A stretch of DNA of 32,898 nucleotides from Acidimicrobiia bacterium (GTDB lineage Bacteria > Actinomycetota > Acidimicrobiia > IMCC26256 > PALSA-610). Positions 9,619 to 31,444 of the stretch are shown here, in pieces. The position numbers and the translations under genes were made by a program. The notes below the pieces were generated by a model, which did no database searches, had not been told where the DNA came from, and saw only the letters and a program-made list of their open reading frames with translations. Numbering within the stretch: the first letter of the stretch is position 1; every line of letters starts with the position of its first letter. The stretch is from NCBI GenBank assembly GCA_017882905.1, contig JADGOO010000070.1, forward strand, positions 1 through 32,898, written 5' to 3'.

Positions 9619-12600
9619 CTATCCGGCCGACCAGTACGCCTTGGCCGTCGCGGTGCCGGTGTGCTCGTAGTACTCGACGGTCACCGTGTGATTGCCGCCG
9701 GTGAGCACGACGCCGGCTGTCCGGGTGCGGGCCGAGTGATCGGCCCAGTCGTTGAGCACGATCGCGCCATCGACGCGCACTCGGATGCCATCGTCGGCGG
9801 TGACGTGGAACGTGTAGCGCCCAGACCTGAAAGCAGCCGTTTGGGTCCACCGCACGCTGAAGTTGTCGCTGCCGACCGGCACGCCCGCCGGAGCGGCGGA
9901 GCCCCAGCTGTTGTTGATGGCCGACTCGCAGCGCGTGACCGCCGCCGGTCCGCTGAGGGTCCGGTTCGGGTAGTACGCCGCGAGCCAACGCCCGGCCGGG
10001 CAGCTCGTCGTCGTGTTGAGCGCGGTCCAGCCGGCCTTCGCGGTGGCAATACCAGTGTGCTCGTAGTACTCGACCGTGATCGTGTGCGTACCGGTGAGGA
10101 ACATTGGCGCGCTGGTGGTCATGGTCGCCGCGTGATCCGACCAGATGCTCAGGCGCTTCACACCGTCGACGAACAGCCGGATGCCGTCGTCGCCCGTGGC
10201 GCCGAACGTGTACCCGCCGGCGAAGCTGGTGGTCTGGGTCCAGCGCACGCTGAAGTTGTCAGCGCCGACGGGCACCCCGGCCGGTGCACCCGAGCCCCAG
10301 CTGTTGTTGATGGCCGACTCGCAGCGTGTGAGCACTGGGCTTCCGCTCAGCGTGCGGTTCGGGTAGTAGGAGGCGCGCCACTGTCCGTTTGGGCACGTCG
10401 TTGTCGCACTGGTGACCGTCCAGTCGAACGTCGTGGTGCCGACACCGCCGTGTCCGTCGTCCGCGCTCACGGTCACGCGGAACGGGCTCCCGGCTGCCGT
10501 CGTCGGCGTGCCCGTGACCACACCGGCCGAGCTGATCGTGAGGCCGGCAGGCAGGCCGATCGCCGAGAAGACAACCGCGTCGCCGTCGGCGTCGGTCGCC
10601 GACAACGCCACGATCACAGCGGCACCGACCGTGCCGGACTGCGCACCCGGGTTCGTCACGACGGGGGTGTCGTTGACGGCGGTGACGGTGATGGTGACGG
10701 TGGCGGGTTGCGATGTCACGGTGTTGTCCGATGCCCGGTACGTGAAGGTGTCGGTGCCGTGCCAGTTGGCGGCAGGTTGGTAGGTGTAGCTGCCGTCGGC
10801 GGCGAGTTGCAGTGTGCCGTGCGCGGGTTGCGTGACGACTTCGGCGGCAAGTGCGTCGCCGTCGACGTCGGTGTCATTGGTGAGCACGCCCGGTGCCGCC
10901 ACGCTCAGCAGTGCGTCTTCCGCCACGGCGGCGCTGTCAGCGGATGCAACCGGCGTGTCGTTGACGCTCGTGACGGTGATCGTCACGGCAACGGTCTGCG
11001 AGGACGCCGTGCCGTCCGACGAGCGGTACGTGAAGCTGTCGGTGCCGTGCCAGTTCGCCGCGGGTGCATACGTGTAGCCGCCGTCGGCTGCCAGCGCGAG
11101 CACGCCGTGTGCCGGCTGACTGACGACTTCGGCCGTCAGCGCGTCGTTGTCGGCGTCGCTGTCATTGGTGAGCACGCCGGGTGCTGCCACACTCAGCTGA
11201 CCGTCTTCGGCGATGGTCGCGGTGTCTTCATGCGCAACCGGCGCGTGGTTGACGGCGGTGACGGTGATGGTCACGGCGACGGCTTGCGAGTATGCGTTGC
11301 CATCGTTGGCGCGGTAGGTGAAGGTGTCGGTGCCGTGCCAGCTGGCGGCGGGTTGGTAGGTGTAGCCGCCGTTGGCATCGAGCTGCAGCGTGCCGTGGGC
11401 AGGTTGCGCGACGACTTCGGCGGCAAGTGCGTCGCCGTCGAGGTCGGTGTCGTTGGTGAGCACGCCGGGTGCCGCCACGGTCAGCAGTGCGTCTTCCGCC
11501 ACGGTGGCGCTGTCAGCGTGCGCGACGGGGATGTCATTCACGCCGTTGATCGTGATCGTCACGGTCACAGTCTGCGACGCCAGTGCGCCGTCGTTGGCGC
11601 GGTAGCTGAAGCTGTCTGTGCCGTGCCAGTTCGCCGACGGTGCATACGTGTAGCCACCATCGGCTGCCAGCGCGAGCACGCCATGAGCCGGCTGGCTGAC
11701 GACCTCCGCCGTCAGCGCGTCGTTGTCGACGTCGCTGTCGTTGCTCAGCACACCCGGTGCCGCCACGGTCAGCTGACCGTCCTCATCGACTGCTGCGCTG
11801 TCATCGCTTGCGACCGGTGCGTGGTTCACCAACGCGTAGCGCAGGGTCACCGCCTCGACCACTGGCGTGACGGCGAGATTCGTGGTGGCGAGGCTCGCCC
11901 GGTACTGCAGGTAGCGACCGGCAGGGCTCGTCACGGCGCCGTTGGCACCGAGGGCCGACCAGCCCGACCAAGAACCGTCGGGAACGACGGTGTCGCCGGT
12001 ACGGGTCTCGAACGCCAGCGAGGTGCCGGCGGGTGTTGTCGTCACGGCCGAGAGCGTGCTCCAGGTGGCGCCGTTCCCTGCGTCGGCGATCCGGGAGAGG
12101 AACGTGCCCGGCGACGTGTAGTTGCCGGCGACGGTCACGTCGTCGTATTCCTGGCGTGCGCCGCCGTAGGCGAGAAGGCCGATGCGCGCAGGGACGTAGG
12201 TGGCGTCGCTACCCGTGAACTGCAGGAGGCCGTCGACGTACACCTTGAACGTGGTGCCGCTGACCTCGAGCTTGAGGTTGTACCACTGGTTGAGCACCGG
12301 GAAGGGCAGCGAGAGGTTCTCGCCGACCTTGCGGATGTTCAGTGGCGCGGTGACTCGGTAGACCTTCAGGCCGCCGTAGGCGCCGGGTGCGTATTGCATC
12401 CACCAGTAGTCGCGGTCGCTCGTGGCGCCCCACACGAAGCCGAGCGAAGGTCCGTCGCCGGACCCGGTGCCCACCTGGGTGATGCGCTGCCGGGAAGTGA
12501 TCGTGAAGTCGCCCGACGGTGTGAGCGAGCTGGCGAGCACAGCCGGGTGATAGCTCGGCGGGTCGCTGTTGAGCTCGTGCACGTAGACGCCACTCTGCAC

Positions 12601-15600
12601 GTCCCACACCGGAAGCGGGGTCGTGCTGACGAGACCGTTCCACGCCTGCCAGTTCGTGGCGGCACCGTCGGCTTGATCGAAGCTGTCGGCGACGCCCGAG
12701 GAGGCCAGCGCGACGGCGCCGTCACCGACGGCCGTCACGACGGTGCCCGCGTGGACGCCGGCCAGGAAGTCGGCCTGCGTCGTATCGGTGGCGTCGTGCA
12801 AGCGCGCGCCGGTCGTGAACGAGAACGTGCGCGGTGCGGTCGTCGTGTTGCCGACGAGGTCGCTGACTCCGGCGGCGATCGTCACGGTGTAGGTGTGGTG
12901 TTCGCTCAGACCTGAGGTCGGGGTGAGTACGATCCGGCGGTTGGCGTTCGCGAACGATGTCGTCACGGCCGCACCGCCGCTGATGCCTGCCATCACAGTG
13001 GCCGGCACGATCACCTCGTCGTAGTCGACGGTGATCGGCGCATCGGGGTTCACGTCGGTGGCTCCGTTGACGGGCGCCGAGCCGGTGAACGCGGGCGGTG
13101 TGTTGTCGGTCGCCATGTCGAAGGCCACCGACACCTCGTCGAGGCGAGGCGTGGTCGACAGATCGGTCGTCGCGAGCGTCGCGCGGTATTGCACGTAGCG
13201 GCCGACCGGACTCACGATCGTGCCGTCGGCGGCCACGTTCTCCCACGGCGACCATGTGGTGCCGTCAGGAGAGGTGCGCGTCGCGAACGACATCGTTGTC
13301 GCGGCCGAGGTGACGCCGACCGAGGTCAGCGTCTGGAACCCGGCGGTGGTGCCCGCGTCGAACACCGAGGATACGTAGGTGCCGCTCGCGGGATACATGC
13401 CGCTGACCACTACGGAGTCGACCGACAAGGTCTGGGCGCCGGCCGCGTACACGCGCATCGCATCGCTGAACGTGCGGTGCTGTGTTGCGGCGAGCGAGCC
13501 GTCCACGTAGAACTCGACGGTGTCGTCGCTCTTCCACACGATCTGGAGATCGTGCGGCACGCCGAGCGCCACGCCCGGGATCGCGATGTCGATCTGGCCG
13601 CCGTCGATGCCGAGACCGTCGCTCATGCGCGTACGGGCGAGCAGCTGGCCGTTCTTGGCCGTGAAGATGATCCAGTGCGGGTCGGTCACGCCGTCATCGC
13701 CCGCGTTGAGCGCGGTGGCGAACCCGAAGTGAGCGTTGGATCCGTCGTTGAGTGTGACACGGGCCGAGAGTGTCTGGCGCGTGTAGGTCGCCTGGCTCTT
13801 GATGTAGGAGGCGCCGGTGATGGTCACCTGGCCGTCGGCCACGGTCACCGCGGGCGCACCGGCCCAGCCCCCGGGCGTCCAGGCGGCGGTGTCGAGCGCG
13901 GTGCCGTCGAACTGATCGGAGAAGGTCCCGGTCGTTCCGAGCGCGACCGCGCCCTGCTGCTGTACCACCGTGTCGGTGAGGTTGCCGTCGGCGAAATCGG
14001 CGGCGGTGGTCTCGATCCATCGCGGCGCGCCGGTGGTGAAGGTGGCGTCGTCGGAGGTGGTCGCGTTCGCCGCACCGTCGGCACTGCGAACCTGGAAGTG
14101 ATACGCGGTCTTCGGCGTGAGGCCCGTGAGGGTGACCGAGTGGCTGGTCACGAGGCTCGGCGTCGAGTGGGTCGTGCCGTACGCTGCAGTGGTGCCGTAG
14201 TCGACGGTGCTGTCGGCTGCCTCGTTGGTGGTCCACGTGATCGTCGCCGCGGTGTCGGTGACGCCGGTGGCGGTCACGGCAGCTACGAGCGGTGCGGTCG
14301 TATCGAGGCCGTACGCCGCGACGACCTGCGCCGACGCTGCCGTGGTCGTGACCATCGCGTACTTCCGGCCGGCAACCGTCTTTTCCGTGAAGGTTGCCGG
14401 CGTGCCGCCGACGGTCACGGAGAGCAGCTGCGAGCTGCCTTGCTCGGCCGGCACCATGATCGTGAGTTCCTGACCGGCCTTGGTGGTCGAGAAGTCGAAC
14501 GTGAGGTTGGTGCCGTTCCATGCGACGTTGCGGAACTGCGAAGCGTCACGAGCTTCGACGAAGTCGGCGAGATGTTCGGCCGACCACATCGGGATGTCGT
14601 GGTCACGCGCGTAGGCCCACAGCATGTTCGCCCACGCGTGGGTGATCGCGTCGACGCCGTTGTAGCGCACGGCGTGGATGTTGGCGACGAACGCGGAGTA
14701 GTAGCCGCTGTCGGCCGACTCGATCATCGACTTCATGATGTTGAACGTTGCTTGTGCGCTGAAGCCGTTGTCGGCGAACCACTCGTCGGGCCATTCGGTG
14801 AGTGCCTGGTAGATCGGCAACACGTTGCCCTGTTCGTCGGTGAACTTCTGGGGCAGTCCGCTGCCCGTGAAGTAGCCGTTGGCGTTGTCGCCGTAACCCA
14901 ACAGCCAGTTCATGTAGTGGTAATAGTTCGTGTCGAGCTCCACGCCGTTCGCGGCTTCGATCGCGGCCATGTCGGCCCAACCGGTCCACGCGATGGTGTG
15001 GTTGCGAGCGGTACGGGCGCTGTGCCCGAACTTCGCCTCGAACTGTGCGACGATCGCGGCCTCCGCAGCGGTCATGCCGTCGAGCGTGCGGTCGCCGTAC
15101 ACGTGCACGCCCTGCTCGTTGCCGGCTGCACGCCACGCGGCTTCGGTTGCTACCGACGTGTTCTGGATACCCGACTCACGCATGTAGGTGGTGAATGCGC
15201 CACCGTAGGAATTGGCGTCGTTGATGACCGGCGCAAGCGCGCTCTCGCCGTCGTCTTCACCGTCGCCGGTGTTGACGATCACCGAGGTGTGCGTACCGGG
15301 CAGGTACCACATGCGCGGCGCGGGAGTGTCGAGCATGCTCAACACGACGTTGGCGAAGAAGCGCTGGGCTTCGTCGGCCTGTGGGATGCGGGTGCGCTCG
15401 GGCGCCAGGTAGCTGGAACCCACCGGTCCGGCGAACAAGTCGGACGGCCGGTAGCTGCTCAGGCCGTCGCGTTCTTCACCGACCCACGCCGGGTTGCCCT
15501 GGCGGGTGAGCACGATGCTCTTGGCGAGGTCGAACGTGAAGGCGGCGGCGCGTCCCGAGCCGGCGTTTGCGATGCTCGTCGCGGGACGGGTCGAGGCCGT

Positions 15601-17727
15601 GTTGATCGAGTCGTAGAGGCTCGCGAGCGCTGTCGCGCCGTTGAGCGTGTAGTTGTCGGCGTCACCGTGATACTGCAACGACGTCGCGGTGATGCCGGCA
15701 CCCGGACCTTGTGTGGTGTCGATGCCGAAGAACTCGAGCAGCTGCTCGGGACGCGCGTTCACGTAGGTGAGCCCGAAGAGATCGGCGAGGCTGGCCTCGG
15801 GCCGCATGGCGAGCAGGTGGCCGCCGGCGTTCACGTAATCACGCATCTGCTGCTGCGCCGTCGTGTCGAGGTTCCCGTCGGCGAGCACGACTTCATCGAA
15901 TGCCGCGAGATAGGCAGCGGGGTCGGCCGACGACGTCAGTGCGTCGAGCTCGATCTGCTGGAACTCGACCACGCCCTCGGCCCGCAGGATCTCCGCGAGG
16001 TAGCCGTTGAAGGGGTTCGCAGTGTTGAGCTTGTCGGTGATGAGCAGGATCGGCTGCGCCGCGGGCTGCAATGCGCCGCCGCCGACGCTGACCGTCGTTG
16101 ACGCAGTTGCGTCGCCGAGCATGAAGTCGTCGGCGACACGGGCGCGGATCTTGAATGTGCCGTTGTGGGTGGGGGTGAACGAGTAGGCCCAGGTGCCGTC
16201 AGCCGCAACGGTCGTTGCATGCCACGTCGCACCGTCGTCGGTGGAGACCTGTACCCGGCGCACACCGGGAACCTCGCGTGCGAGACCGATCTGTCCGCCG
16301 ACCTCACCCGAGTAGTACATGTACCACTGGCCGTCGACGAGCACCATCGACGAGCGGTACAGCGTGCTGCCTTCCCACCCGCCGTTCGCTTGGAACGTGG
16401 GGTTGGCCGGGTTCGCAGTCCACGGGCCGTCAGGGCTCGGCGCGTTGTACGTGCCGAGGGTCGCCATGTCGGCGCCTGCGGGGTCGAGATAGAGCATCGT
16501 CCAGATGTCGCGCTGTGCGTCGTAGACGACGTCGACATGAGGTCCGTAGTTGTACGCGCCGAAGTCAACGGCAATGCCGTGCTTCGTCCACGGTCCGCGC
16601 GGATCGTTGGCGGTGTCGTGCACCACGAGCACGTCGCCGTTGTGCAAGACGGTGCGCCACATGTGGTACAGGCCGTCCTTGAACACGACGGCCGGCTCAC
16701 CGGTCTTCGCGCTCGGATCGTTCTCGAAGTCATACGCCGCGTCGGGTGCCACGATCGGGTTGCCGTTCGCCGGCATGGAGGCGGGCGGGTTCGCAGGGTC
16801 GTAGGTGTACGTGCCGCCGTACGGAGTCCAGCTGATGCCATCGGTGGAGAGCGCGAGGCCGATGTAGCCACCACCCGCCATGAAGGCACCGATCGACGAG
16901 GCGGTGCTTGCGGGCGTCTCCATCTCGTAGAAGAGCATCCACGTGTTGCCGACCTTGATCGCTTCGGGGTCGGCGAGGTTCTGCATGTCGAACGGCGGTT
17001 GCATGCCGTAGGTGACGATCGGGTTTGTCACGCCGACCGCGTCGAAGTGCACACCGTCGTTCGAGCGCATGACGACGGGGTCTTCCGCGCCCGGGTACGG
17101 CGTGTAGTACAGGTAGAACTTGTAACCGTCGATGCCCGACGGGAAGTACAGAGCCGAGGGATGCAGCATCGGGCTGTTACCCACATCGTTGCCGTTGTGG
17201 TCCCAGTGGCGCAGCTCGAGCGGATTGTTCGCGTCGCGTTGCCAGATCGATCCTGTTGCTTGTCCGGAGATCGTGTAGCTCTGGCCCGCAGTGAAAGGAC
17301 CTGACGGCACGACCAGACTGCTTGTCGGTCGCTTCGATGCCGGATTGGCCTGCACCGTGAACGCGAAGCTGTAGTCGTTACCGAGCGTGGAGCCGCCCAC
17401 GGCTTGCACGGTGCGCGCCACGACGACGTCGTAGGTAGCGCCGTACGCGAGCTCACCCGGATCGACGCGCACATGCGTCGCGTCCGACACGACGATCTGC
17501 GTTCGTACCATCGCCGCGCCGTTGATCGTCCCTGCGAACGACGCGGGCACGATCGCCTCGCTGAACGTCACGTCGATCTGGGCGGTGCGCGAGGCGTCGG
17601 AACCCGACGGTGTCGCGCCCGCGACGCTGAGGCCTGCCGCGCTCGCTGCCGCTGTCGATGCGACAACGGCGCTCGCGACCATGGCGAGCACGATCAGCAG
17701 GGTGATGATCGATCGGTAGATCCGCAT
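9619..17727 (-). CDS. Giant secreted multidomain glycan-associated protein (2702 aa)
   Basis: Starts at ATG 17727 with GGAGG 6 nt upstream; the frame extends 56 codons further but that is the leader. Approximate layout: signal peptide 1-31; SbsA-type Ig-like domain 32-130; five-bladed GH43/GH32-like propeller 163-488 (paired aromatic/Asp motifs such as LADPEAIKVGNTWMLFYEM); Ig-like 488-552; amidotransferase-like Rossmann region 558-800 (ILLITDK, DYVNAGGHLLAMRP); divergent polysaccharide-deacetylase-like region 803-1056 (TGDGEDDGES, NEQGVHVYGD); Fn3 1140-1233; lectin-like domains 1266-1446 and 1680-1873, each followed by a similar beta module; second Ig-like 1543-1640; four 96-residue cadherin-like repeats 1967-2351; putative Ig 2353-2440; two PA14-like repeats 2442-2702. 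No LPXTG, transmembrane helix or other anchor at the C-terminus, so it is secreted or held by glycan binding. A role in processing or binding an extracellular polysaccharide is inferred from domains. It interrupts the men cluster. Confidence 0.88.
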   Translation of the reverse strand: MRIYRSIITLLIVLAMVASAVVASTAAASAAGLSVAGATPSGSDASRTAQIDVTFSEAIVPASFAGTINGAAMVRTQIVVSDATHVRVDPGELAYGATYDVVVARTVQAVGGSTLGNDYSFAFTVQANPASKRPTSSLVVPSGPFTAGQSYTISGQATGSIWQRDANNPLELRHWDHNGNDVGNSPMLHPSALYFPSGIDGYKFYLYYTPYPGAEDPVVMRSNDGVHFDAVGVTNPIVTYGMQPPFDMQNLADPEAIKVGNTWMLFYEMETPASTASSIGAFMAGGGYIGLALSTDGISWTPYGGTYTYDPANPPASMPANGNPIVAPDAAYDFENDPSAKTGEPAVVFKDGLYHMWRTVLHNGDVLVVHDTANDPRGPWTKHGIAVDFGAYNYGPHVDVVYDAQRDIWTMLYLDPAGADMATLGTYNAPSPDGPWTANPANPTFQANGGWEGSTLYRSSMVLVDGQWYMYYSGEVGGQIGLAREVPGVRRVQVSTDDGATWHATTVAADGTWAYSFTPTHNGTFKIRARVADDFMLGDATASTTVSVGGGALQPAAQPILLITDKLNTANPFNGYLAEILRAEGVVEFQQIELDALTSSADPAAYLAAFDEVVLADGNLDTTAQQQMRDYVNAGGHLLAMRPEASLADLFGLTYVNARPEQLLEFFGIDTTQGPGAGITATSLQYHGDADNYTLNGATALASLYDSINTASTRPATSIANAGSGRAAAFTFDLAKSIVLTRQGNPAWVGEERDGLSSYRPSDLFAGPVGSSYLAPERTRIPQADEAQRFFANVVLSMLDTPAPRMWYLPGTHTSVIVNTGDGEDDGESALAPVINDANSYGGAFTTYMRESGIQNTSVATEAAWRAAGNEQGVHVYGDRTLDGMTAAEAAIVAQFEAKFGHSARTARNHTIAWTGWADMAAIEAANGVELDTNYYHYMNWLLGYGDNANGYFTGSGLPQKFTDEQGNVLPIYQALTEWPDEWFADNGFSAQATFNIMKSMIESADSGYYSAFVANIHAVRYNGVDAITHAWANMLWAYARDHDIPMWSAEHLADFVEARDASQFRNVAWNGTNLTFDFSTTKAGQELTIMVPAEQGSSQLLSVTVGGTPATFTEKTVAGRKYAMVTTTAASAQVVAAYGLDTTAPLVAAVTATGVTDTAATITWTTNEAADSTVDYGTTAAYGTTHSTPSLVTSHSVTLTGLTPKTAYHFQVRSADGAANATTSDDATFTTGAPRWIETTAADFADGNLTDTVVQQQGAVALGTTGTFSDQFDGTALDTAAWTPGGWAGAPAVTVADGQVTITGASYIKSQATYTRQTLSARVTLNDGSNAHFGFATALNAGDDGVTDPHWIIFTAKNGQLLARTRMSDGLGIDGGQIDIAIPGVALGVPHDLQIVWKSDDTVEFYVDGSLAATQHRTFSDAMRVYAAGAQTLSVDSVVVSGMYPASGTYVSSVFDAGTTAGFQTLTSVGVTSAATTMSFATRTSPDGTTWSPWENVAADGTIVSPVGRYVQYRATLATTDLSTTPRLDEVSVAFDMATDNTPPAFTGSAPVNGATDVNPDAPITVDYDEVIVPATVMAGISGGAAVTTSFANANRRIVLTPTSGLSEHHTYTVTIAAGVSDLVGNTTTAPRTFSFTTGARLHDATDTTQADFLAGVHAGTVVTAVGDGAVALASSGVADSFDQADGAATNWQAWNGLVSTTPLPVWDVQSGVYVHELNSDPPSYHPAVLASSLTPSGDFTITSRQRITQVGTGSGDGPSLGFVWGATSDRDYWWMQYAPGAYGGLKVYRVTAPLNIRKVGENLSLPFPVLNQWYNLKLEVSGTTFKVYVDGLLQFTGSDATYVPARIGLLAYGGARQEYDDVTVAGNYTSPGTFLSRIADAGNGATWSTLSAVTTTPAGTSLAFETRTGDTVVPDGSWSGWSALGANGAVTSPAGRYLQYRASLATTNLAVTPVVEAVTLRYALVNHAPVASDDSAAVDEDGQLTVAAPGVLSNDSDVDNDALTAEVVSQPAHGVLALAADGGYTYAPSANWHGTDSFSYRANDGALASQTVTVTITINGVNDIPVAHADSATVAEDALLTVAAPGVLTNDTDLDGDALAAEVVAQPAHGTLQLDANGGYTYQPAASWHGTDTFTYRANDGNAYSQAVAVTITVTAVNHAPVAHEDTATIAEDGQLSVAAPGVLTNDSDADNDALTAEVVSQPAHGVLALAADGGYTYAPAANWHGTDSFTYRSSDGTASSQTVAVTITVTSVNDTPVASADSAAVAEDALLSVAAPGVLTNDTDVDGDALAAEVVTQPAHGTLQLAADGSYTYQPAANWHGTDTFTYRASDNTVTSQPATVTITVTAVNDTPVVTNPGAQSGTVGAAVIVALSATDADGDAVVFSAIGLPAGLTISSAGVVTGTPTTAAGSPFRVTVSADDGHGGVGTTTFDWTVTSATTTCPNGQWRASYYPNRTLSGSPVLTRCESAINNSWGSGAPAGVPVGADNFSVRWTQTTSFAGGYTFGATGDDGIRLFVDGVKRLSIWSDHAATMTTSAPMFLTGTHTITVEYYEHTGIATAKAGWTALNTTTSCPAGRWLAAYYPNRTLSGPAAVTRCESAINNSWGSAAPAGVPVGSDNFSVRWTQTAAFRSGRYTFHVTADDGIRVRVDGAIVLNDWADHSARTRTAGVVLTGGNHTVTVEYYEHTGTATAKAYWSAG
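9622..10405 (-). repeat. Two PA14-like domain repeats (393-bp period)
   Basis: Two copies of a ~131-codon unit with identical stretches such as CESAINNSWGS, DNFSVRWTQT and TVEYYEHTG. The shared DNA anchor TTGTTGATGG recurs at 9911 and 10304, exactly 393 bp apart. PA14 modules usually bind carbohydrates. Confidence 0.85.
10675..11830 (-). repeat. Four cadherin-like repeats, 288-bp period, A-B-A-B order
   Basis: Matching junctions fall at 10675, 10963, 11251 and 11539, each exactly 288 bp (96 codons) apart. Each unit contains APGVL-NDxD, QPAHG and WHGTD-F-YR, typical of the VCBS/cadherin-like Asp-rich calcium-binding repeats. Units 1 and 3 share DNDALTAEVVSQPAHGVLAL; units 2 and 4 share DGDALAAEVV-QPAHGTLQL. 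Confidence 0.9.
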
Positions 17728-17893
17728 GACGACCTCCGTGTGTTCGACGGAGGTCGCACGGGGCGGCGCTTCCGTCGAGGATGCTCGACTCCAGCGCCGG
17801 TTTCGCCATTCGCTCCCCGCAGCGGAGGCGACCCTTCTGCCTCTGCGGATCATTGCGTCGCTGCATCCGACGGTACGGAGCGCAGAAAGGCGC
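17728..17893 (-). promoter_or_regulatory. Structured 5' leader of the giant gene, riboswitch-like, class not recognised
   Basis: Read on the minus strand this leader has three hairpins before the ATG. Hairpin 1 (17848-17817) has stems CCGCA/UGCGG and GAGGC/GCCUC, a 9-nt loop containing GGGUC and a CGC bulge. A purine-rich joint with GAGCGAAUGGCGAAACC follows. Hairpin 2 (17798-17765) has stems GGCGCU/AGCGCC and GUCGAG/CUCGAC around a symmetric GGA/GGA internal loop and a CAUC tetraloop. Hairpin 3 (17755-17731) sequesters the ribosome binding site. Two-hairpin aptamer-like architecture plus a sequestering stem is typical of translational riboswitches, but the conserved bases of classes I know (cobalamin, c-di-GMP, glycine, ydaO) do not fit. 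A further imperfect hairpin can form around 17850-17890. Confidence 0.5.
17731..17755 (-). promoter_or_regulatory. Shine-Dalgarno-sequestering hairpin
   Basis: GACCTCCGT and ACGGAGGTC form a perfect 9-bp stem with a 7-nt loop on the minus strand. The 3' arm holds the GGAGG ribosome binding site, 6 nt before ATG 17727. When this stem is formed, ribosome access to the giant gene should be blocked. Confidence 0.8.
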
Positions 17894-18017
17894 AAGTAGG
17901 GCCAAAGGTCTAATGGGGGTCGTGAGCGACCGTGTTGCGTGAGGTGTCACATCGCGAACGCGTCGGCGTCGAGACTGCGTCGGGTCGCGAGGCGACGGAG
18001 TGCGGGCGTTGATCGTG
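17894..18017 (-). other. Spacer downstream of menF with small hairpins
   Basis: This stretch follows the menF stop and precedes the giant-gene leader. It contains short stems GTCGC/GCGAC (17984-17996) and GGTCG/CGACC (17918-17931), either of which could end the menF transcript. The promoter for the giant gene must lie about here, but I see no convincing -35/-10 pair. No coding region is evident. Confidence 0.3.
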
Positions 18018-23985: not shown

Positions 23986-24813
23986 TCACTCCCAGACGGT
24001 GACGGGCGCGAGGCGGTGCGCGACCCGGTCGAACGCGGCGAGCATGGGAGCGCCGAGGGCCAGGATGCACGCCGCGTTGAGCAGCGCGCCGGCCGCATCC
24101 CAGGCGAGTGAGTCGGCCACGTAGAACGACCAGTACCGGTGCAGCGTGGTGGCCACGCCGAGTCCGGGTGCGTAGGAGAGCGCGCCGCCGTCCTGGATGA
24201 GCGGCCACGACCAGAGGTTGATCAGCAACCCGAACACGAACGCCGCCACCCAGCCGTACGCCGCGAGCACCACCAATCGAGGGCGCGGCGACAGCGCTCG
24301 GGTGGCATGGCCCACGAGGCCGGCGAGCGCGCCGAGCGCGGCCGCGGCGAGCATCTGGAACGGCAGCCACGGGCCGATCCCGGCGGTGATCACGGCCGAC
24401 GCCGCCATCGCGTTGAGCCCGAGCAGCGCACCGAAGCGTGGGCCGAATGCGACCGCCGCGAGGATCAGCACGAACCACATGGCGTTGCCGCCACCCGCGA
24501 GCCGCGCGAGACGCAGGAGCCCGATCATCGCGGACAGCACACCGAGCACGGCGATGTGCGCGCCCCGCATCGCACCGCGATGCACCTCGATCACGAGCGC
24601 GCCTACGACAGCGGCGCCGAGCAGCGCGGCCCAGAGCCACGCGTCGCCGCCGTGCTCCGCGCCAGGGAGGGCTTGGCTCGACGTGACGAACGGCCAGCCG
24701 AAGGCCGCCACTCCGATCAGCACGACGAGCGAGTACGTGAGCGCGACCCGTGCTCGATCGAGTGACGACGAGCGTGTCACCGATGCCGCTTCGGGCGCGG
24801 TCAGGGCATGCAT
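23986..24813 (-). CDS. ECF transporter substrate-binding S component, probably for cobalamin
   Basis: 275-residue membrane protein with about six hydrophobic segments. MWFVLILAAVAFGPRFGALLG and AGIGPWLPFQMLAAAALGA match the S-component family that pairs with EcfAA'T, like CbrT-type proteins. The S component captures the vitamin and, with the T and A subunits, moves it across the membrane. Cobalamin is inferred from the divergent B12 riboswitch and the transcobalamin-like gene pair next to the operon. ATG 24813 overlaps the end of the ATPase gene by 13 bp. Another in-frame start is not evident. Confidence 0.78.
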   Translation of the reverse strand: MHALTAPEAASVTRSSSLDRARVALTYSLVVLIGVAAFGWPFVTSSQALPGAEHGGDAWLWAALLGAAVVGALVIEVHRGAMRGAHIAVLGVLSAMIGLLRLARLAGGGNAMWFVLILAAVAFGPRFGALLGLNAMAASAVITAGIGPWLPFQMLAAAALGALAGLVGHATRALSPRPRLVVLAAYGWVAAFVFGLLINLWSWPLIQDGGALSYAPGLGVATTLHRYWSFYVADSLAWDAAGALLNAACILALGAPMLAAFDRVAHRLAPVTVWE

Positions 24814-26375
24814 AGCGCGGCCTCTACGTCGGCGAGGGTGAGCAGCGGCGGAAGCACGCGTAGCACTTGCGGTGCGAACAGCGAGCCGGCGAGCACTGTG
24901 GCCGCGTCGCCGTCGGCGACCACGTCGCCCGCGCCGAGCACCACGACGCGGTGCGCGACGCGCGCGGCGAGCTCTACGTCGTGCGTCGCGAGCAGCACTG
25001 CGCCCCCGGCGGCCGCGTGCTCGTGCACGGCGTGCTCGAGTGCCGTGCGCGACGGCGTGTCCATGCCGCGCGTGGGCTCATCGAGCAACAGAACCTCCGC
25101 GCCGCCGACTGCGACTGCCGCGATGGCGAGGCGTTGGCGTTCGCCGCCCGACAGCGTGCGCGGATGGCGCTCGGCGACGGCGTCGAGATGCAGCCGGTTG
25201 AGCCACTGCTCGACGCGCTCGGGTTCATGGCGGCCGAGCAGGCGCAGCGTCGCCGCCACTTCGGCGCGGGCCGTGGGGGCGGAGAACAGTGCGTTCGGGT
25301 CTTGGGGAACGTAGGCGACGCGCGCGTGACGTTCGATCGTGCCGTGCGCAAGGTTGGCGAAGCCGGTGAGGGCGCGCAGCAACGTCGACTTGCCGGCGCC
25401 GTTGCGGCCGAGCAGCGCCACGACCTCGCCTTCGTGCAGCGTGAGCTCGATGTCGTGCAGCACGCGTCGGCCCCCGAGCTGGACCCGGACGTGCTCGGCG
25501 CGCACGATTGGAGCGCCTTGCGCGCCGGTCGCGCGGCGCGTCTCGGGTGTGCCCAACGGACCGAGTCCGACGGCGTAGCGCCGCGCGTCCTTCACGGTCA
25601 TCGGCGGCGGATCCCAGCCCAGCAGCCGCCCGAGTCGCAGCACCACGGGCGCGCCGTCGTAGTCGGCGAGGGCTTCGACGGGAGGTCCGTCGGCCACGAT
25701 CCGACCCGCGGCCATCACGAGCGCTCGGTCGGCGAGCGGTGCGGCGCGGTCGAGACGGTGCTCGGCGAGCAGCACTGTGGTGCCGAGGTCGGCGTTGAGG
25801 CGGGCCAGTGCGGCGAGCACGTCGTCGGCGCCCTGAGGATCGAGCTGGCTCGTGGGTTCGTCGAGCACGAGCACGCCGGGCGCGGCCGCGAGTGCGCCCG
25901 CGATCGCCACGCGCTGGCGCTCGCCACCCGACAAGGTGGCCGGATCACGATCGCGGAGATGCGCGATCGCGAGGGCGTCGAGCACCTCTTCGACGCGTCG
26001 GCGCATCGACGCGGCGTCGTGGCCGAGGTTCTCGAGCGCGAAGGCGATGTCGCTCTCCACGTGGTCCACCACGAACTGGGCTTCGGGGTCTTGGTGCACG
26101 AAGCCCACCACATCGGTGAGGCGGCGCGGCTCGTGGGCGCGGGTGGACCGGCCGGCAACCAGCACCTCGCCGGCGAAGCGGCCGCCGGTGGCGTGAGGGA
26201 CGAGACCGTTCGCGGCGCGCAGCAACGTGCTCTTGCCCGAGCCCGACGCGCCTGCGAGCACGACGAGCTCGCCGGCGCTGAGTGCGAGATCGACGTCGTC
26301 GATGGCCGCGCCGGCGCGGTCGGGATACGCGAAGCGCACGCCGGTGTAGGTGAGCGTGTGCGTCAACGCGTCCAC
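24801..26375 (-). CDS. ECF transporter ATPase, two ABC domains fused (A-A')
   Basis: 524-residue protein with two complete ABC ATPase domains in one chain, energising the ECF importer. Domain 1: Walker A GASGSGKST (about 42-50), Q-loop FVHQDPEAQ, signature LSGGERQRV, Walker B VLVLDEPTSQLDP, switch His in LLAEHRLD. Domain 2: Walker A GRNGAGKST (about 321-329), Q-loop YVPQDPN, signature LSGGERQRL, Walker B VLLLDEPTRGMD, switch His in LATHDVEL. The start is taken as GTG 26375, which overlaps the T-component stop by 13 bp. The frame is open far upstream only as a shadow of the T gene. Fusion of A and A' is common in actinobacterial ECF systems. Confidence 0.9.
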   Translation of the reverse strand: MDALTHTLTYTGVRFAYPDRAGAAIDDVDLALSAGELVVLAGASGSGKSTLLRAANGLVPHATGGRFAGEVLVAGRSTRAHEPRRLTDVVGFVHQDPEAQFVVDHVESDIAFALENLGHDAASMRRRVEEVLDALAIAHLRDRDPATLSGGERQRVAIAGALAAAPGVLVLDEPTSQLDPQGADDVLAALARLNADLGTTVLLAEHRLDRAAPLADRALVMAAGRIVADGPPVEALADYDGAPVVLRLGRLLGWDPPPMTVKDARRYAVGLGPLGTPETRRATGAQGAPIVRAEHVRVQLGGRRVLHDIELTLHEGEVVALLGRNGAGKSTLLRALTGFANLAHGTIERHARVAYVPQDPNALFSAPTARAEVAATLRLLGRHEPERVEQWLNRLHLDAVAERHPRTLSGGERQRLAIAAVAVGGAEVLLLDEPTRGMDTPSRTALEHAVHEHAAAGGAVLLATHDVELAARVAHRVVVLGAGDVVADGDAATVLAGSLFAPQVLRVLPPLLTLADVEAALCMP

Positions 26376-27541
26376 GCGGGCTCCCGGGCGACGGATTCGT
26401 GGCGATCCATCGCGGTGTCGACAGGCGCGGTCGCGCTGCGCGCGGTGGCGTGGCGCAACGTGAGCAGCGGTGCCAACAGCGACGTGAGCGCCACGACGAG
26501 CAGCACGCTCACTTGCGGCACTTCGAGGCGCGTCGGCGTCCAGTGCAGCGACGACTCGCCCGCGATCGCCGCCCAACCGACCGCGAGCGGTGCGATGGCG
26601 CTGACCGCGATCACTGCGAGGTCGGTCCCCGTGAAGGGGCGCGGGCGGTAGCGCACGCGGCGTTGCGCCCGTGATCCGATGACGATCGCGACCGTGCCCG
26701 CCGCCCCGGACACCACGAACAAGGCGACGGCGGCCGTGGAAGCGCGTGAGATGAGCGCGACGAGGCCGCCGGCGGCGGCCAGCAGAGCAACGAGCATCGT
26801 CCATGCCGAGGTGCGCTCCTCGCGGCTCGGGGTCGAGTGCCCGAGGCCGCGTGCGTCCATCGATTCGGCCAACGCCACTGCGCGTTCCAGACCCGTTTCG
26901 AGCACCGGGATCACCCGCCGGCGCAGCGCGCCACGGCGGCGCACGACACCGCCGGTGCGGGCCCGCTCGGCTTCCTGCACCGCGCGCAACGTGGTGAGGG
27001 TCGAGGGCACGAACGCGATCGCGACGGTCACGACCAGCGCGGGTTCGTGAAACGCGCGGGGCACGGCACGCAGCGCCTCGTGGTGCGAGACGACTGCGTT
27101 CCATGCCGCGAACACTGCGATGAACACCGTGATCGTGTACGCCTCCGCGATCGATTGCAGCAGCACGTCGCGCTCGAACGTGCCGCCGACCGTGAAGCCG
27201 CCGAGCAGGTGCGGCAGCGTGAACACGAACGGCCACCGGAACAGCGTGACGCCCACGCCGTGGGTCGTGAGCGTGGTGATGGCAACCCGGACCACGCCGA
27301 AGATGGCTCCGATCGCGACGAACAGGCCGTAGGTACGGCCGAGCGCGCCGGTGCGGCCGCACGACTCCACGACGAGCGTGCACGCAAGGAGGATCACCGT
27401 GCCGTACACGGCGCTCGGGGCCGCGTACACGCACACCGCGGCCGACGCGGCCCATGCCGTCCACGCCAGCGCGTGCAGGCGTGAGCGGTCCGCCGAGGGC
27501 ATGCGATCCAGGGTCGCGCGCCACGGTGGGTTGTGCATCAT
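26363..27541 (-). CDS. ECF transporter transmembrane T component
   Basis: 392-residue membrane protein with two hydrophobic blocks flanking a cytoplasmic coupling region. The region TLTTLRAVQEAERARTGG and the later ESMDARGLG (Ala-Arg-Gly motif) are the coupling helices that dock into the ATPases. First gene of the T-AA-S operon. Two consecutive ATG codons occur; the first (27541) has GGAGG 7 nt upstream and is used. Its length exceeds typical T subunits because of extra helices near the C-terminus. The promoter is within 27542-27620, shared with the divergent riboswitch gene. No B12 riboswitch is seen in its own leader. Confidence 0.85.
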   Translation of the reverse strand: MMHNPPWRATLDRMPSADRSRLHALAWTAWAASAAVCVYAAPSAVYGTVILLACTLVVESCGRTGALGRTYGLFVAIGAIFGVVRVAITTLTTHGVGVTLFRWPFVFTLPHLLGGFTVGGTFERDVLLQSIAEAYTITVFIAVFAAWNAVVSHHEALRAVPRAFHEPALVVTVAIAFVPSTLTTLRAVQEAERARTGGVVRRRGALRRRVIPVLETGLERAVALAESMDARGLGHSTPSREERTSAWTMLVALLAAAGGLVALISRASTAAVALFVVSGAAGTVAIVIGSRAQRRVRYRPRPFTGTDLAVIAVSAIAPLAVGWAAIAGESSLHWTPTRLEVPQVSVLLVVALTSLLAPLLTLRHATARSATAPVDTAMDRHESVAREPAWTR

Positions 27542-27609
27542 CGCCCCGCCTCCGTTATGGTCGTGCCGGCTGCGGTCGTACCCGACCCGGACGTCGGGTG
27601 CGGTCCCAA

Positions 27610-27756
27610 CTACCAGCGACAGGTGCGTGCACACGGTGATCCGTGTGGGTGGGCCGGTCACTGGGGTGGAGACGGGGGAAGCCGGTGCGAGACCGGCGCT
27701 GACCCGCAACTGTGAGCGGTGGCCGTGAGACCACCGTGAGCCAGGATGCCCGCCGC
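27610..27756 (+). ncRNA. Cobalamin (B12) riboswitch
   Basis: Conserved core elements occur in order on the plus strand: GGCCGGTCACTGG (27652-27664), GGGGAA then the hairpin GCCGGTGCGAGACCGGCGC (27681-27699), CCCGCAACTGTGA (27703-27715) and the 3' B12 box GAGCCAGGATGCCCGCC (27738-27754). The 5' boundary is approximate. Riboswitches of this class bind adenosyl- or related cobalamin and lower expression when B12 is plentiful. The gene 97 nt downstream encodes a transcobalamin-like surface protein. A TATGGT hexamer at 27556-27561 may be the -10. The gap 27542-27852 contains only this switch, its expression platform and the divergent promoters. Confidence 0.93.
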
Positions 27757-27817
27757 AGCTCACGGCGTCGCTCGCGCGGCGGCGTGTCCCCGTTGCCCGC
27801 GGCTCCGGCCGCTCATG

Positions 27818-27839
27818 GGGCCCTCGAGGAGAGGGGCCC
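27818..27839 (+). promoter_or_regulatory. Expression-platform hairpin before the RBS
   Basis: GGGCCC-TC and GA-G-GGGCCC pair with one bulged G around a GAGGA loop, ending 2 nt before the GGAGG ribosome binding site (27842-27846). It is the likely expression platform of the cobalamin riboswitch. It could limit ribosome access or terminate transcription; no T-run follows, so translation control is more likely. Confidence 0.5.
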
Positions 27840-27852
27840 ACGGAGGTGTTGC

Positions 27853-29157
27853 ATGCGTTCCCGTCTCGTGTTGTCGTTGCTCTCGTGCGCCGGCGTTGCC
27901 GCGCTGGCGACCAGCCCCGTCGTGCTCCTCGCATCGGCCGCGTCGGGCGCTCCCGGCGCGGCCGGCCCGAGCACCGCCGTCGCCCAGGCGATCTCGTTCA
28001 TCGCGGCGCAGCAGCGCAGCGACGGCGGGTTCGGTTCCAGCGAAGCAGGCTTCCCCGGTTTCGAGACCCCCGACGCGCTGCTCGCGATCGGCGCCGCGGC
28101 CCAGACCGGCTCGGCATGGAACGCCGGGGAGGCGCGCTCGGCCGTCGAAGCCGTCAGGAACAACGGGCACAGCGGCCTGCACTACCTCGACGATTGGGCC
28201 GACGGTGCCTTCGGCGCGATCAACGCGGGCGGTGCTGCGCGCATCGCAGTCGTAGCCGTAGCGCTCGGGCTCGACCCGGCCTCGTTCGATCCCGACCATG
28301 ACGGCGCGGCCAACCTCGTGAGCATGGTGAGCGCCGGCGAGCAGCCCGACGGCACGTGGGGCGTGGGTGCGCTGAACACGACACTGACCGCCGTGCTCGC
28401 GCTGCGCGCCGTGGGCCACTCGATCGACGCGTCGACGGTTGCCGCGATCGACGCCGCGCAACAGGCGAACGGCGCGTGGAACTTTGCCGGTGACCCGAAG
28501 GGCACCGACATCGACCCCGACACAACGGGGCTCGCCATCGAGGCGCTCATCGCCGCGGGGGTGTCGCCGACCGACGCCGCCGTGCAGCGCGGTGTCGCGT
28601 TTCTGGCCGGTTCCCAAGCCACCGACGGCGCGTGGAGCGACGCGTTCGCCCACGCGGAGAACCCCAACTCGACCGCGCTGGGTGCGCTCGGTGTGATCGC
28701 CGCGGGGTACGACCCCGCGACGCGGTGCTGGCGCGATCAGCTCGCGCCCGCACGTGCCGGTCTTGCCTACGCCAGCCCGCAGCACGCGATCCTCGCCACC
28801 CAGCAGTCCGACGGTCGCTTCGCGAGCCCGAACGACAGCTTCGGCATCAACACCTTCGCCACCGCGCAGGGCGTGCAAGCTGTCGTGCCCGGCTATCAGC
28901 CGGTGGTGCGCGCCGCGCCGCAACCGTGCACGACACCACCGGTGACCACGACGACCACCGCGGCTCCGACCACCACGGCCGGCTCGAACACGACCGTGGC
29001 CGGTCAGGGCGTGACGACGACCACCTCCACGGGAGCGGGCACGCTGCCCCTCACCGGCCGTGGCAGCTCGCGTGGCGCACTGTTCGCCGCGTTGCTCCTC
29101 GTGGCCGGCGGCGCGTTGACGCTCGTGGGTCGGCGGCGCGTGCTCGGCCCGCAGTGA
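27853..29157 (+). CDS. B12-regulated LPXTG-anchored alpha/alpha-toroid surface protein (transcobalamin alpha-domain-like)
   Basis: 434-residue exported protein starting at ATG 27853 with GGAGG 6 nt upstream. Signal peptide ~1-32. Residues ~40-355 form five or more terpene-cyclase/prenyltransferase-type toroid repeats, each with Q-x-x-DG-F/W motifs: QQRSDGGFGS, QPDGTWGVG, QQANGAWNF, SQATDGAWSD and QQSDGRFAS. The same fold makes the alpha domain of intrinsic factor and transcobalamin. A Thr-rich linker (~363-398) leads to LPLTG, a hydrophobic helix and RRR, a sortase-type cell-wall anchor. It lacks the catalytic acidic motifs expected of a cyclase. The B12 riboswitch upstream and the DUF4430-like partner (4-bp overlap) make cobalamin capture the leading hypothesis. 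Direct binding is inference. Confidence 0.82.
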   Translation: MRSRLVLSLLSCAGVAALATSPVVLLASAASGAPGAAGPSTAVAQAISFIAAQQRSDGGFGSSEAGFPGFETPDALLAIGAAAQTGSAWNAGEARSAVEAVRNNGHSGLHYLDDWADGAFGAINAGGAARIAVVAVALGLDPASFDPDHDGAANLVSMVSAGEQPDGTWGVGALNTTLTAVLALRAVGHSIDASTVAAIDAAQQANGAWNFAGDPKGTDIDPDTTGLAIEALIAAGVSPTDAAVQRGVAFLAGSQATDGAWSDAFAHAENPNSTALGALGVIAAGYDPATRCWRDQLAPARAGLAYASPQHAILATQQSDGRFASPNDSFGINTFATAQGVQAVVPGYQPVVRAAPQPCTTPPVTTTTTAAPTTTAGSNTTVAGQGVTTTTSTGAGTLPLTGRGSSRGALFAALLLVAGGALTLVGRRRVLGPQ

Positions 29158-30035
29158 CCCGACGCCTCGCGGCCGCGCTCGTGGTGAGCGCGGCCGCGTT
29201 GTCGTTCGCACTCGCGGCGGTGGGCGGGAGTACCGCGGGTGCCGCCGGTACCGGACATGCGGTCGTGGTGGTCGACTTCGGTGACGGCCACGCGCACGTC
29301 GCCGGTATCAGCTTCGCGAGCTCGTCGATCAGCGGGCTGGCCGCACTCCAGCTCGCTGGGTATGCGCCGGCGGTGCGCGCGTTCGGCGGGAACGGCGGCG
29401 CGGTGTGCGCGCTCACCGACTCGCACGGTACGCAGCTCGGGTGCCCGACCGACTCGTCGTGCTTCACGTGCGCGGCGCCGAACTACTGGGCGTACTTCCG
29501 CGCCGGGCCCGGTGCGCGTCGCTACGCGTACTCGACCGTGGGTGCGGGATCCACGTCGGTCACGAACGGCAGCGTCGAAGCGTGGCGCTGGGGGCCCGGC
29601 ATCGCGCCGCAGTTCGTGAGCTACACGTCGGTGTATCCGCCACCCGTGGTGCCCACGACGAATGCGCCGTCGGCGACCACGGCGCCAAGCGTCGGTGTCG
29701 CAGGTGGCACCACGACCGTGCCGAGCCGCTTCACGCCCACCACGAGCACGGCTCGCGTGACCGTTGCGCCGGGTCGGGTGGCGCCGACTGTGCCGACCAC
29801 GCGTGCGACAACGGGACACGGGCGGTCTGGCTCCACGGCCACCACATCGGGGTCGCCCGCCACGTCGACAACACGGTCGGCGCGCCTCGCGTCCGGTCGC
29901 GCGCCCGTGGTGCATGGAGGCGGCGGCTCGACGGGCGCGTTCGTCGGGTTCGTCGTGCTGGTCGCGCTGCTGCTCGCGGCGATCGTCGTCGTTCGATTTC
30001 GCCGCCGCGCGGCCGGAGTCGCCCCGGCCCGCTGA
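29154..30035 (+). CDS. Membrane-anchored DUF4430-like protein (transcobalamin beta-domain-like)
   Basis: 293-residue exported protein. GTG 29154 overlaps the stop of the toroid gene by 4 bp (GTGA). Signal peptide ~1-31 (RRLAAALVVSAAALSFALAA). The folded part, ~33-162, has VVVVDFGDGHAHVAGISF, SISGLAALQLAGY, four Cys in VCALTDSHGTQLGCPTDSSC and the following CAAP, then NYWAYFRAGPG and VEAWRWGPG. The Tyr-Trp-x-Tyr and Trp-rich end resembles DUF4430, the fold of the cobalamin-capping beta domain of transcobalamin. A long Thr/Ser/Pro linker (~165-255) precedes a C-terminal transmembrane helix and an Arg-rich tail, with no LPXTG. Under the same riboswitch as the toroid protein. Probably completes a corrinoid-binding pair at the cell surface. 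Confidence 0.78.
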   Translation: MTRRLAAALVVSAAALSFALAAVGGSTAGAAGTGHAVVVVDFGDGHAHVAGISFASSSISGLAALQLAGYAPAVRAFGGNGGAVCALTDSHGTQLGCPTDSSCFTCAAPNYWAYFRAGPGARRYAYSTVGAGSTSVTNGSVEAWRWGPGIAPQFVSYTSVYPPPVVPTTNAPSATTAPSVGVAGGTTTVPSRFTPTTSTARVTVAPGRVAPTVPTTRATTGHGRSGSTATTSGSPATSTTRSARLASGRAPVVHGGGGSTGAFVGFVVLVALLLAAIVVVRFRRRAAGVAPAR

Positions 30036-30052: not shown

Positions 30053-30088
30053 TTGACCAGCCTTATAACGGCGTTATATGTTGCTCGC
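30053..30088 (+). promoter_or_regulatory. Leaderless promoter overlapped by a palindromic operator
   Basis: TTGACC (30053-30058) is a near-consensus -35. TATGTT (30077-30082) is a TANNNT -10 with an 18-bp spacer, and the ATG follows 6 nt later; TATATG at 30075 is an alternative -10. The perfect inverted repeat TATAACG-G-CGTTATA (30064-30078) fills the spacer and touches the -10. It looks like a TetR-family operator, where binding would block RNA polymerase. Confidence 0.7.
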
Positions 30089-31444
30089 ATGACGACGACG
30101 GCGCCCGCGAACCCTTATCTGGCCGGCAACTACGGGCCGGTGGCCGAGGAGATCACGACCACCGATCTCGAGGTGCGGGGCCGGCTCCCCGAAGCCCTCA
30201 CCGGGCGCTACTTGCGCACCGGACCGAACCCGAATGGCGCGCCGCCGCAGCCGTACCACTGGTTCCTCGGCGACGGCATGATCCACGGCATCGAGCTCGC
30301 CGGTGGTCGAGCCGGCTGGTACCGCAACCGGTGGGTGCGCACGGGCGAGCTCACGACGAAGCTCGGTGCACCCGCGGTCGATGGCCCCGCGCAGCCGATG
30401 TACGACGCGAGCAACACCAACGTGCTCGGCTTCGCGGGTCGCATCCTCTCGCTCACCGAGGGCTGTTATCCCTACGAGCTGTCGCGCGAGCTCGACACGT
30501 TGCGTCGCTTCATGCCGACCGCCGGCGACCTCCCGCACGGTCTCACTGCGCACCCCAAGGTGGATCCGGTCACCGGCGATCTGCACGGGTTCTCGTACTG
30601 GTTCGTCGAGCCGTACCTCTACTACCACGTGATCCGACCCGACGGCACCGTCGCGGTGAGTGAGCCGATCACGTTGCCGCGGTCGGTGTCGATGCACGAC
30701 TTCGCGATCACGCGTGACCACGTGCTCTTCTTCGATCAGCCGTACGTGTTCGATCTCGACATCGCGATGCAGCAGGGCTTCCCGTTCCGATGGGCGCCCG
30801 AACACGGCGCCCGCCTCGGCGTGCTGCCCCGCACCGGAACCGATGCCGACATCCGTTGGTTCGACACCGAGACCTGTTACTGCTTCCATCCCATGAACGC
30901 GTACGAAGGCGCCGACAACACGATCGTTGTCGACGTTCCGAAGATGGACGGAGTGGGGAGTGGCGCCGCGCCCACGCCGAACAAGCTCTCGCTGGAGCGG
31001 TGGACCGTCGATCTGAACGCCGGTCTCGTGAAGCAGACAGTGCTCGACGACACGCCGCAGGAGTTCTGCCGCGTGAACGAGTCGCTCCTCGGGTCGCCTC
31101 ACCGCTTCGGTTACACGATCGGCACGGGCATGGGCGCCGACGACATGCCGTACGCGAGCACGCGGGTGTTCAAGCACGACCTCGTGGCCGCCACCCGCGC
31201 CGACCACGACTTCGGACCGGGTTGCCATCCGGGCGAGCTCGTGTTCGTGGCCGATCCCGAACGAGCGTCGGCCGAAGACGGCGGATGGTGCATGGGTCTC
31301 GTGCACGACGACGCCACCATGCGCACGCGGCTCGTGGTGCTCGACGCGCAGGACTTCGCCGGGTCGCCTGTGGCTGAGGTGATGCTGCCCACACGCGTGC
31401 CGTACGGCTTCCACGGCAACTGGGTGCCCGACACGCTCGCCTGA
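30089..31444 (+). CDS. Carotenoid cleavage oxygenase family protein
   Basis: 451-residue non-haem iron enzyme of the carotenoid cleavage / apocarotenoid / stilbene oxygenase family, cutting a conjugated double bond with O2. The seven-bladed propeller fold is supported by the four iron-binding histidines in the expected contexts: His155 (LTAHPKVD), His203 (SMHDFAIT), His267 (CFHPMNAYE) and His442 (GFHGNWVP). The N-terminus NPYLAGNYGPVAEE and GRYLRTGPNPNG are family-typical. The frame is open upstream only as a shadow of the preceding gene; ATG 30089 is set by the leaderless promoter 6 nt away. Substrate could be a carotenoid, apocarotenal or lignin-derived stilbene. It is regulated by a TetR-like site, but no TetR gene is in the window. 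Confidence 0.92.
   Translation: MTTTAPANPYLAGNYGPVAEEITTTDLEVRGRLPEALTGRYLRTGPNPNGAPPQPYHWFLGDGMIHGIELAGGRAGWYRNRWVRTGELTTKLGAPAVDGPAQPMYDASNTNVLGFAGRILSLTEGCYPYELSRELDTLRRFMPTAGDLPHGLTAHPKVDPVTGDLHGFSYWFVEPYLYYHVIRPDGTVAVSEPITLPRSVSMHDFAITRDHVLFFDQPYVFDLDIAMQQGFPFRWAPEHGARLGVLPRTGTDADIRWFDTETCYCFHPMNAYEGADNTIVVDVPKMDGVGSGAAPTPNKLSLERWTVDLNAGLVKQTVLDDTPQEFCRVNESLLGSPHRFGYTIGTGMGADDMPYASTRVFKHDLVAATRADHDFGPGCHPGELVFVADPERASAEDGGWCMGLVHDDATMRTRLVVLDAQDFAGSPVAEVMLPTRVPYGFHGNWVPDTLA

Follow-up and report, generated by a model that had tools for sequence, protein, structure and literature searches.

The locus described here is best read as a system that captures B12 outside the cell for import by an ECF transporter. 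It lies in a 32,898-nucleotide stretch of DNA from an Acidimicrobiia bacterium (the window), where a cobalamin riboswitch stands before two overlapping genes. The first encodes a secreted alpha/alpha-toroid protein (gene 1) and the second a secreted protein with a predicted transcobalamin-type beta domain (gene 2), and both are neighbours of a transporter with a CbrT-like S component. As a whole explanation of the locus, the proposed B12 (corrinoid) acquisition system is given a probability of roughly 0.8. That the locus takes up corrinoids in one way or another is very probable. By analogy with the animal B12 carriers, it is also slightly favoured that the chains of gene 1 and gene 2 clamp one ligand together. 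If this is true, the ECF importer would have a dedicated extracellular receptor made of the same parts as the animal B12 carriers. The features concerned are the following.

23986..24813, minus strand: ECF S component, CbrT-like (PF12822 and PDB profile match)
24801..26375, minus strand: ECF ATPase A-A', a single chain with two fused ATPase domains; its start codon is inferred
26363..27541, minus strand: ECF T component, CbiQ-like, divergent from the riboswitch (family match)
27638..27771, plus strand: cobalamin riboswitch aptamer (RF00174), 5' of gene 1
27840..27846, plus strand: ribosome-binding site of gene 1, ACGGAGG, 6 nt before the ATG (read in the sequence)
27853..29157, plus strand: gene 1, secreted alpha/alpha-toroid protein, 434 aa, ATG start
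27967..28911, plus strand: alpha/alpha-toroid domain of gene 1, transcobalamin alpha-domain-like (family HMM match)
29044..29058, plus strand: LPLTG sortase motif of gene 1 (read in the sequence), followed by a hydrophobic stretch and RRR
29154..30035, plus strand: gene 2, secreted membrane-anchored beta-domain protein, 293 aa, GTG start
29250..29621, plus strand: DUF4430/transcobalamin beta-like domain of gene 2 (AlphaFold2 and Foldseek)
29934..29993, plus strand: C-terminal transmembrane helix of gene 2 (mean hydropathy 3.24 over 19 residues)

Riboswitch, host genome and ECF genes

The window is one contig of a host genome of 4.36 Mb that is rated 100% complete. A clear B12 riboswitch ahead of two overlapping genes, as the sequence-only reading had described it, is borne out by RF00174, which scores 54.8 bits (E 3.8e-11, gathering score 31.5) and is matched over the full aptamer, model positions 1-189. 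That reading had begun the locus at 27542, the base adjoining the T gene's start; the first base of the aptamer is 27638. The overlap of the two genes consists of four bases, GTGA, in which the GTG of gene 2 meets the stop codon of gene 1. When the leader was folded as a single sequence, the signal was not significant and no expression platform stood out clearly. The riboswitch faces the toroid and beta genes only and is the sole cobalamin riboswitch found across the host genome. The ECF genes run the opposite way and are not downstream of a riboswitch, and no second one serving them was found in the host genome.

The divergent T-AA-S transporter that had been described beside the pair is present, with T, fused A-A' and S all on the minus strand. 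The T protein alone has no Pfam match, and CbiQ (PF02361) is found in 21 of 28 members of its family. TIGR04520 matches A-A' in two stretches (E 1.6e-93). PF12822 is found in 25 of 28 members of the S family, and the only significant match of the S family profile among all PDB chains is CbrT (6fnp_A, E 3.8e-6). By this comparison, CbrT is the nearest solved structure to the S component. Relatives of S in Herpetosiphon (L114, L119) are apparently solitary, with no T, A-A', toroid or beta genes nearby.

The B12 enzymes of the host comprise MetH, proteins of the methylmalonyl-CoA-mutase type and a PduO-type adenosyltransferase. An apparent in-frame TAG in metH proved to be the normal stop codon of that gene. 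Of the corrin-synthesis markers sought in the host genome, CbiC/CobH is absent and CobM/CbiF has no match over the cut-off; FecCD permease, the family of BtuC, is absent as well. Since B12 enzymes are present while both corrin markers and FecCD are missing, the host is, on its gene content, a consumer of B12 without BtuCD, and it probably cannot make the corrin ring.

Two further genes of the window were noted. An RPE65-like carotenoid oxygenase gene (30089-31444, plus strand; PF03055, E 6e-110) follows gene 2, has its own promoter-like site at 30053-30082 and is probably unrelated to the B12 locus. Additionally, a c-di-GMP-II-GAG riboswitch (17786-17869, minus strand; RF03169, 60.6 bits) lies at the 5' end of a 2758-codon open reading frame with VCBS/tandem-95 repeats (9619-17895, minus strand). 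The latter is probably a surface protein under c-di-GMP control, with its true start inside the frame.

The two surface proteins and their fused relatives

Gene 1 begins with a signal peptide and continues through the toroid and a Thr-rich linker to the LPLTG motif, the hydrophobic stretch and RRR, so both the secreted alpha/alpha toroid and the LPLTG-type C-terminus of the original description are present. The toroid matches Pfam SQHop_cyclase_C (E 1.5e-11), as do 29 of 29 members of the gene 1 family, and the family profile matches squalene-hopene cyclase (8e-38) as well as complement-type toroids. By family, the protein is assigned to the alpha/alpha toroids. Cobalamin_bind (PF01122) has no match in gene 1 and is found in 2 of 29 relatives, with a best E of 0.0099. 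Gram_pos_anchor (PF00746) matches gene 1 at E 0.011, which is short of the curated cut-off. About one quarter of the relatives carry an LPxTG-like motif, and many others have a plain C-terminal helix or neither; as judged from these motifs, wall anchoring is not general among them. The host genome contains four sortase genes.

Gene 2 opens with a signal peptide, followed by a domain of some 120 residues, a long Thr/Pro linker and, at the C-terminus, a strong hydrophobic helix, in agreement with its earlier description, and most relatives of the beta protein also end in a C-terminal helix. Pfam matched no family to gene 2, DUF4430 (PF14478) included, and among the relatives DUF4430 was found in 1 of 39, at E 0.028. 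A sequence search of the PDB with gene 2 matched nothing. Sequence searches thus do not tie gene 2 directly to DUF4430 or a solved structure, and the link appears in the structural model alone. A viral fold library yielded nothing significant.

The AlphaFold2 model of gene 2, made with 70 aligned sequences, has a mean pLDDT of 91.5. In a Foldseek search of the PDB, ranks 1-12 are held by 3u7z (RUMGNA_00854), a DUF4430 protein, and by transcobalamin and haptocorrin structures, including human transcobalamin beta domains and whole transcobalamin/haptocorrin, with probabilities of 0.89-1.00. E-values are modest (3.4e-3 to 4e-2, none below 1e-3), and target-normalised TM-scores against isolated beta domains are 0.57-0.71. 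Past rank 12 the probabilities drop, save for intrinsic factor at ranks 14 and 15. Since the top twelve matches are of the DUF4430/transcobalamin type, the model assigns that beta fold to gene 2; the proposed likeness to DUF4430 and the comparison of the predicted structure with transcobalamin have both come out positive.

The sequence-only reading had held that two folds joined in a single animal carrier chain occur here as separate genes, and the relatives strengthen this view. Both domains share one open frame in six related loci, the toroid coming before the beta domain in four (L080, L089, L120, L130) and after it in two (L153, L159). The fusion of L130, from a member of the Nocardioidaceae, was modelled by AlphaFold with a pLDDT of 85.8. 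Transcobalamin or intrinsic factor accounts for each of its top 13 PDB matches (E 1.9e-9 to 8e-8), which outrank every terpene cyclase, and the alignments span 470-493 columns, so that both domains are included. As modelled, L130 gives no transcobalamin-like clamp: the rmsd to transcobalamin is about 20 Å and the domains are oriented differently.

Some variants of the pair were also observed. The fusion of L080 (6069-8381) runs into a long repeat-rich C-terminus that resembles cell-wall-binding repeats, instead of LPXTG. Four Amycolatopsis loci (L124, L139, L142, L146) encode extra-long proteins with two toroid units together with two beta proteins; their two B12 riboswitches diverge, and each points towards a toroid gene. 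Moreover, the host genome holds a second set of toroid, beta and T genes (L052, positions 1-3096 of contig C200) with a beta frame of 310 codons; this 3.1 kb contig begins at the toroid gene, and the leader falls outside it.

Conservation, rival explanations and proposed mechanism

Starting from the S component alone, 80 named loci were gathered, mostly from Actinomycetota, with several from Chloroflexota and one from an Acidobacteria MAG. Fifty of them have T and A-A' and extend 7.5 kb or more upstream of S; these form the full-view subset. The beta protein is encoded in 48 of these, the toroid in 40 and both in 39. A B12 riboswitch was detected in 49 of the 50, and in 47 the next gene downstream on its strand encodes a toroid or beta protein; the proposed co-occurrence of the homologues with B12 riboswitches and ECF S genes is thereby upheld. 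These counts were made with a riboswitch model of 18 aptamers from earlier loci of the same cluster, which is not fully independent because a few of its aptamers come from the same genomes. Rfam's own model confirmed 22 loci of the first set; of 16 named loci checked with it, 11 exceed its cut-off. Genomes of 2-12 Mb carry about 1-8 such riboswitches, and a chance match within 20 kb is therefore of the order of 1 to 2%.

Gene order varies among the loci. In many Actinomycetota and Chloroflexota the riboswitch, surface proteins, T, A-A' and S follow one another on one strand. In the class of the window, divergent ECF genes are the usual arrangement. Duplicate beta proteins are frequent, and their position varies. 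For instance, the beta gene of Chloroflexota loci L109 (5158-5490) and L128 (9187-9519) lies between A-A' and S, not beside the toroid gene. Loci that match NCBIfam SCO2322 strongly have T, A-A' and S, and most have a B12-riboswitch-like RNA. Their riboswitches had seemed absent at the Rfam threshold, a result overturned by the cluster-built model, which finds one in most of them (at one locus only at 18.7 bits). At Streptomyces loci L133 and L149 the riboswitch is over Rfam's own cut-off.

Corrinoid uptake could also be served by surface proteins that act independently, with the beta protein as a receptor feeding S, the toroid as a separate wall scavenger or store, and no shared site. No toroid was detected in 10 of the 50 full-view loci, most of which still have a beta protein, and such independence would suit these loci. 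The same holds for the frequent duplication of the beta gene and its relocation in L109 and L128, and for the human transcobalamin beta domain, which was crystallised alone with cyanocobalamin (5np4). However, fusions in both orders and the four-base gene overlap suggest a joint function, and we consider independent action unlikely. Import of cobalt, a corrin precursor or another tetrapyrrole by the cluster, instead of complete cobalamin, is more improbable. The S component is not CbiM-like and matches PF12822 and CbrT, and cobalt alone would be useless for corrin synthesis in a genome without CbiC and with no CobM/CbiF over the cut-off. This explanation draws on the occurrence of cobalt transporters under B12 riboswitches (PMC2667541) and on the membership of the T component in the CbiQ family, and its precursor part retains some credit as cobinamide, too, is a substrate of CbrT (PMC5997447).

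Pfam's best name for gene 1, the squalene-hopene cyclase C-terminal domain, would fit an exported terpene-cyclase-like enzyme, or else an adhesin, with gene 2 as an unrelated stalk and riboswitch control as incidental. Terpene cyclase identity was dropped, and a cyclase role is unlikely, because the catalytic DxDD motif is absent from gene 1 and from all but 6 of 84 relatives. The signal peptide and anchor of gene 1, the constant linkage with B12 riboswitches and CbrT-like ECF genes, and the ranking of transcobalamin above terpene cyclases for the fused L130 also speak against this explanation, which is the hardest of the three to credit.

According to the preferred reading, B12 capture for ECF import, the riboswitch would permit expression of gene 1 and gene 2 at low levels of cobalamin in the cell, and with plentiful cobalamin it would repress these surface genes. 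The toroid of gene 1 would be displayed outside the cell, probably linked to peptidoglycan by sortase, and the beta-grasp domain of gene 2 would project from the membrane on a long, flexible stalk. Homology with transcobalamin and the natural fusions suggest that toroid and beta domain together may enclose cobalamin outside the membrane. For import, the captured cobalamin would then go to the CbrT-like S component of the neighbouring ECF transporter, in this presumed order of hand-over; the relay from wall to membrane to importer suggested by the sequence-only reading would be of this kind. The broader proposal that a wall toroid and a membrane beta protein form a two-chain cobalamin clamp feeding the ECF S component, widespread in Actinomycetota and Chloroflexota, is tentative and stands a little below even odds. 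Open-licence papers yielded no experimental study and neither binding nor transport data on any member.

The proposal would offer a testable function for two families named only by Streptomyces locus tags (SCO2321, SCO2322) and for an ECF S family across Actinomycetota and Chloroflexota. It would also explain the vitamin supply of B12-dependent members without BtuCD. Furthermore, the two halves of the animal B12 carriers would have bacterial counterparts, some split and some fused, which provide material for the proposal that animals obtained their carriers from bacteria. ECF transporters are generally described as operating without an external binding protein; if confirmed, the present system would be an ECF importer served by extracellular binding proteins.

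Comparison with known systems

Animal transcobalamin, intrinsic factor and haptocorrin combine, like the window, an alpha/alpha toroid with a DUF4430-type beta-grasp domain, and they are the best structural match of both gene 2 and the fused L130. They are single chains, whereas the window has two separate chains with separate predicted anchors, as two overlapping genes. The window sequences are too distant from the animal carriers for Pfam Cobalamin_bind or DUF4430, and the domain orientation of fused L130 is unlike that of transcobalamin.

Among transporters, ECF-CbrT of Lactobacillus delbrueckii (6FNP) is a proven cobalamin and cobinamide transporter (PMC5997447). It shares its module with other S components, and CbrT sits with nrdJ and pduO, whereas the window has a dedicated T, A-A', S cluster with two extracellular proteins. 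Its S component is also longer (275 aa versus 182 in CbrT). For Actinomycetota, an ECF module preceded by a riboswitch was put forward in a 2017 study as the B12 importer in acI actinobacteria (PMC5301498). The passages on this predicted importer contain no discussion of toroid or beta proteins at the surface. The ECF genes of the window cluster also occur in Nanopelagicales, at loci L116, L132 and L154.

Bacterial surface proteins of the toroid/SLBB type, encoded in operons with CbiO/CbiQ-like genes, were reported by Burroughs et al. 2007 (PMC1796856), who suggested that they scavenge B12. Those systems, from low-GC Gram-positives, planctomycetes and archaea, resemble the window in having a secreted, sometimes wall-anchored toroid, a transcobalamin-like beta domain and ECF-type genes. 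The general idea of B12 scavenging by toroid and beta proteins beside ECF genes is thus not new and was proposed in 2007 for other bacteria. Compared with them, the branch in Actinobacteria and Chloroflexota is more divergent, often split into two genes, linked to riboswitches and equipped with a CbrT-like S component. NCBIfam SCO2321 and SCO2322, whose function is not named, match genes 1 and 2 weakly and far under the family cut-offs (32 bits against 300 and 18 bits against 85, respectively). What is new is the joining of a divergent, often split toroid/beta pair with a B12 riboswitch and a CbrT-like S component over two phyla, in a system that takes in the SCO2321 and SCO2322 families.
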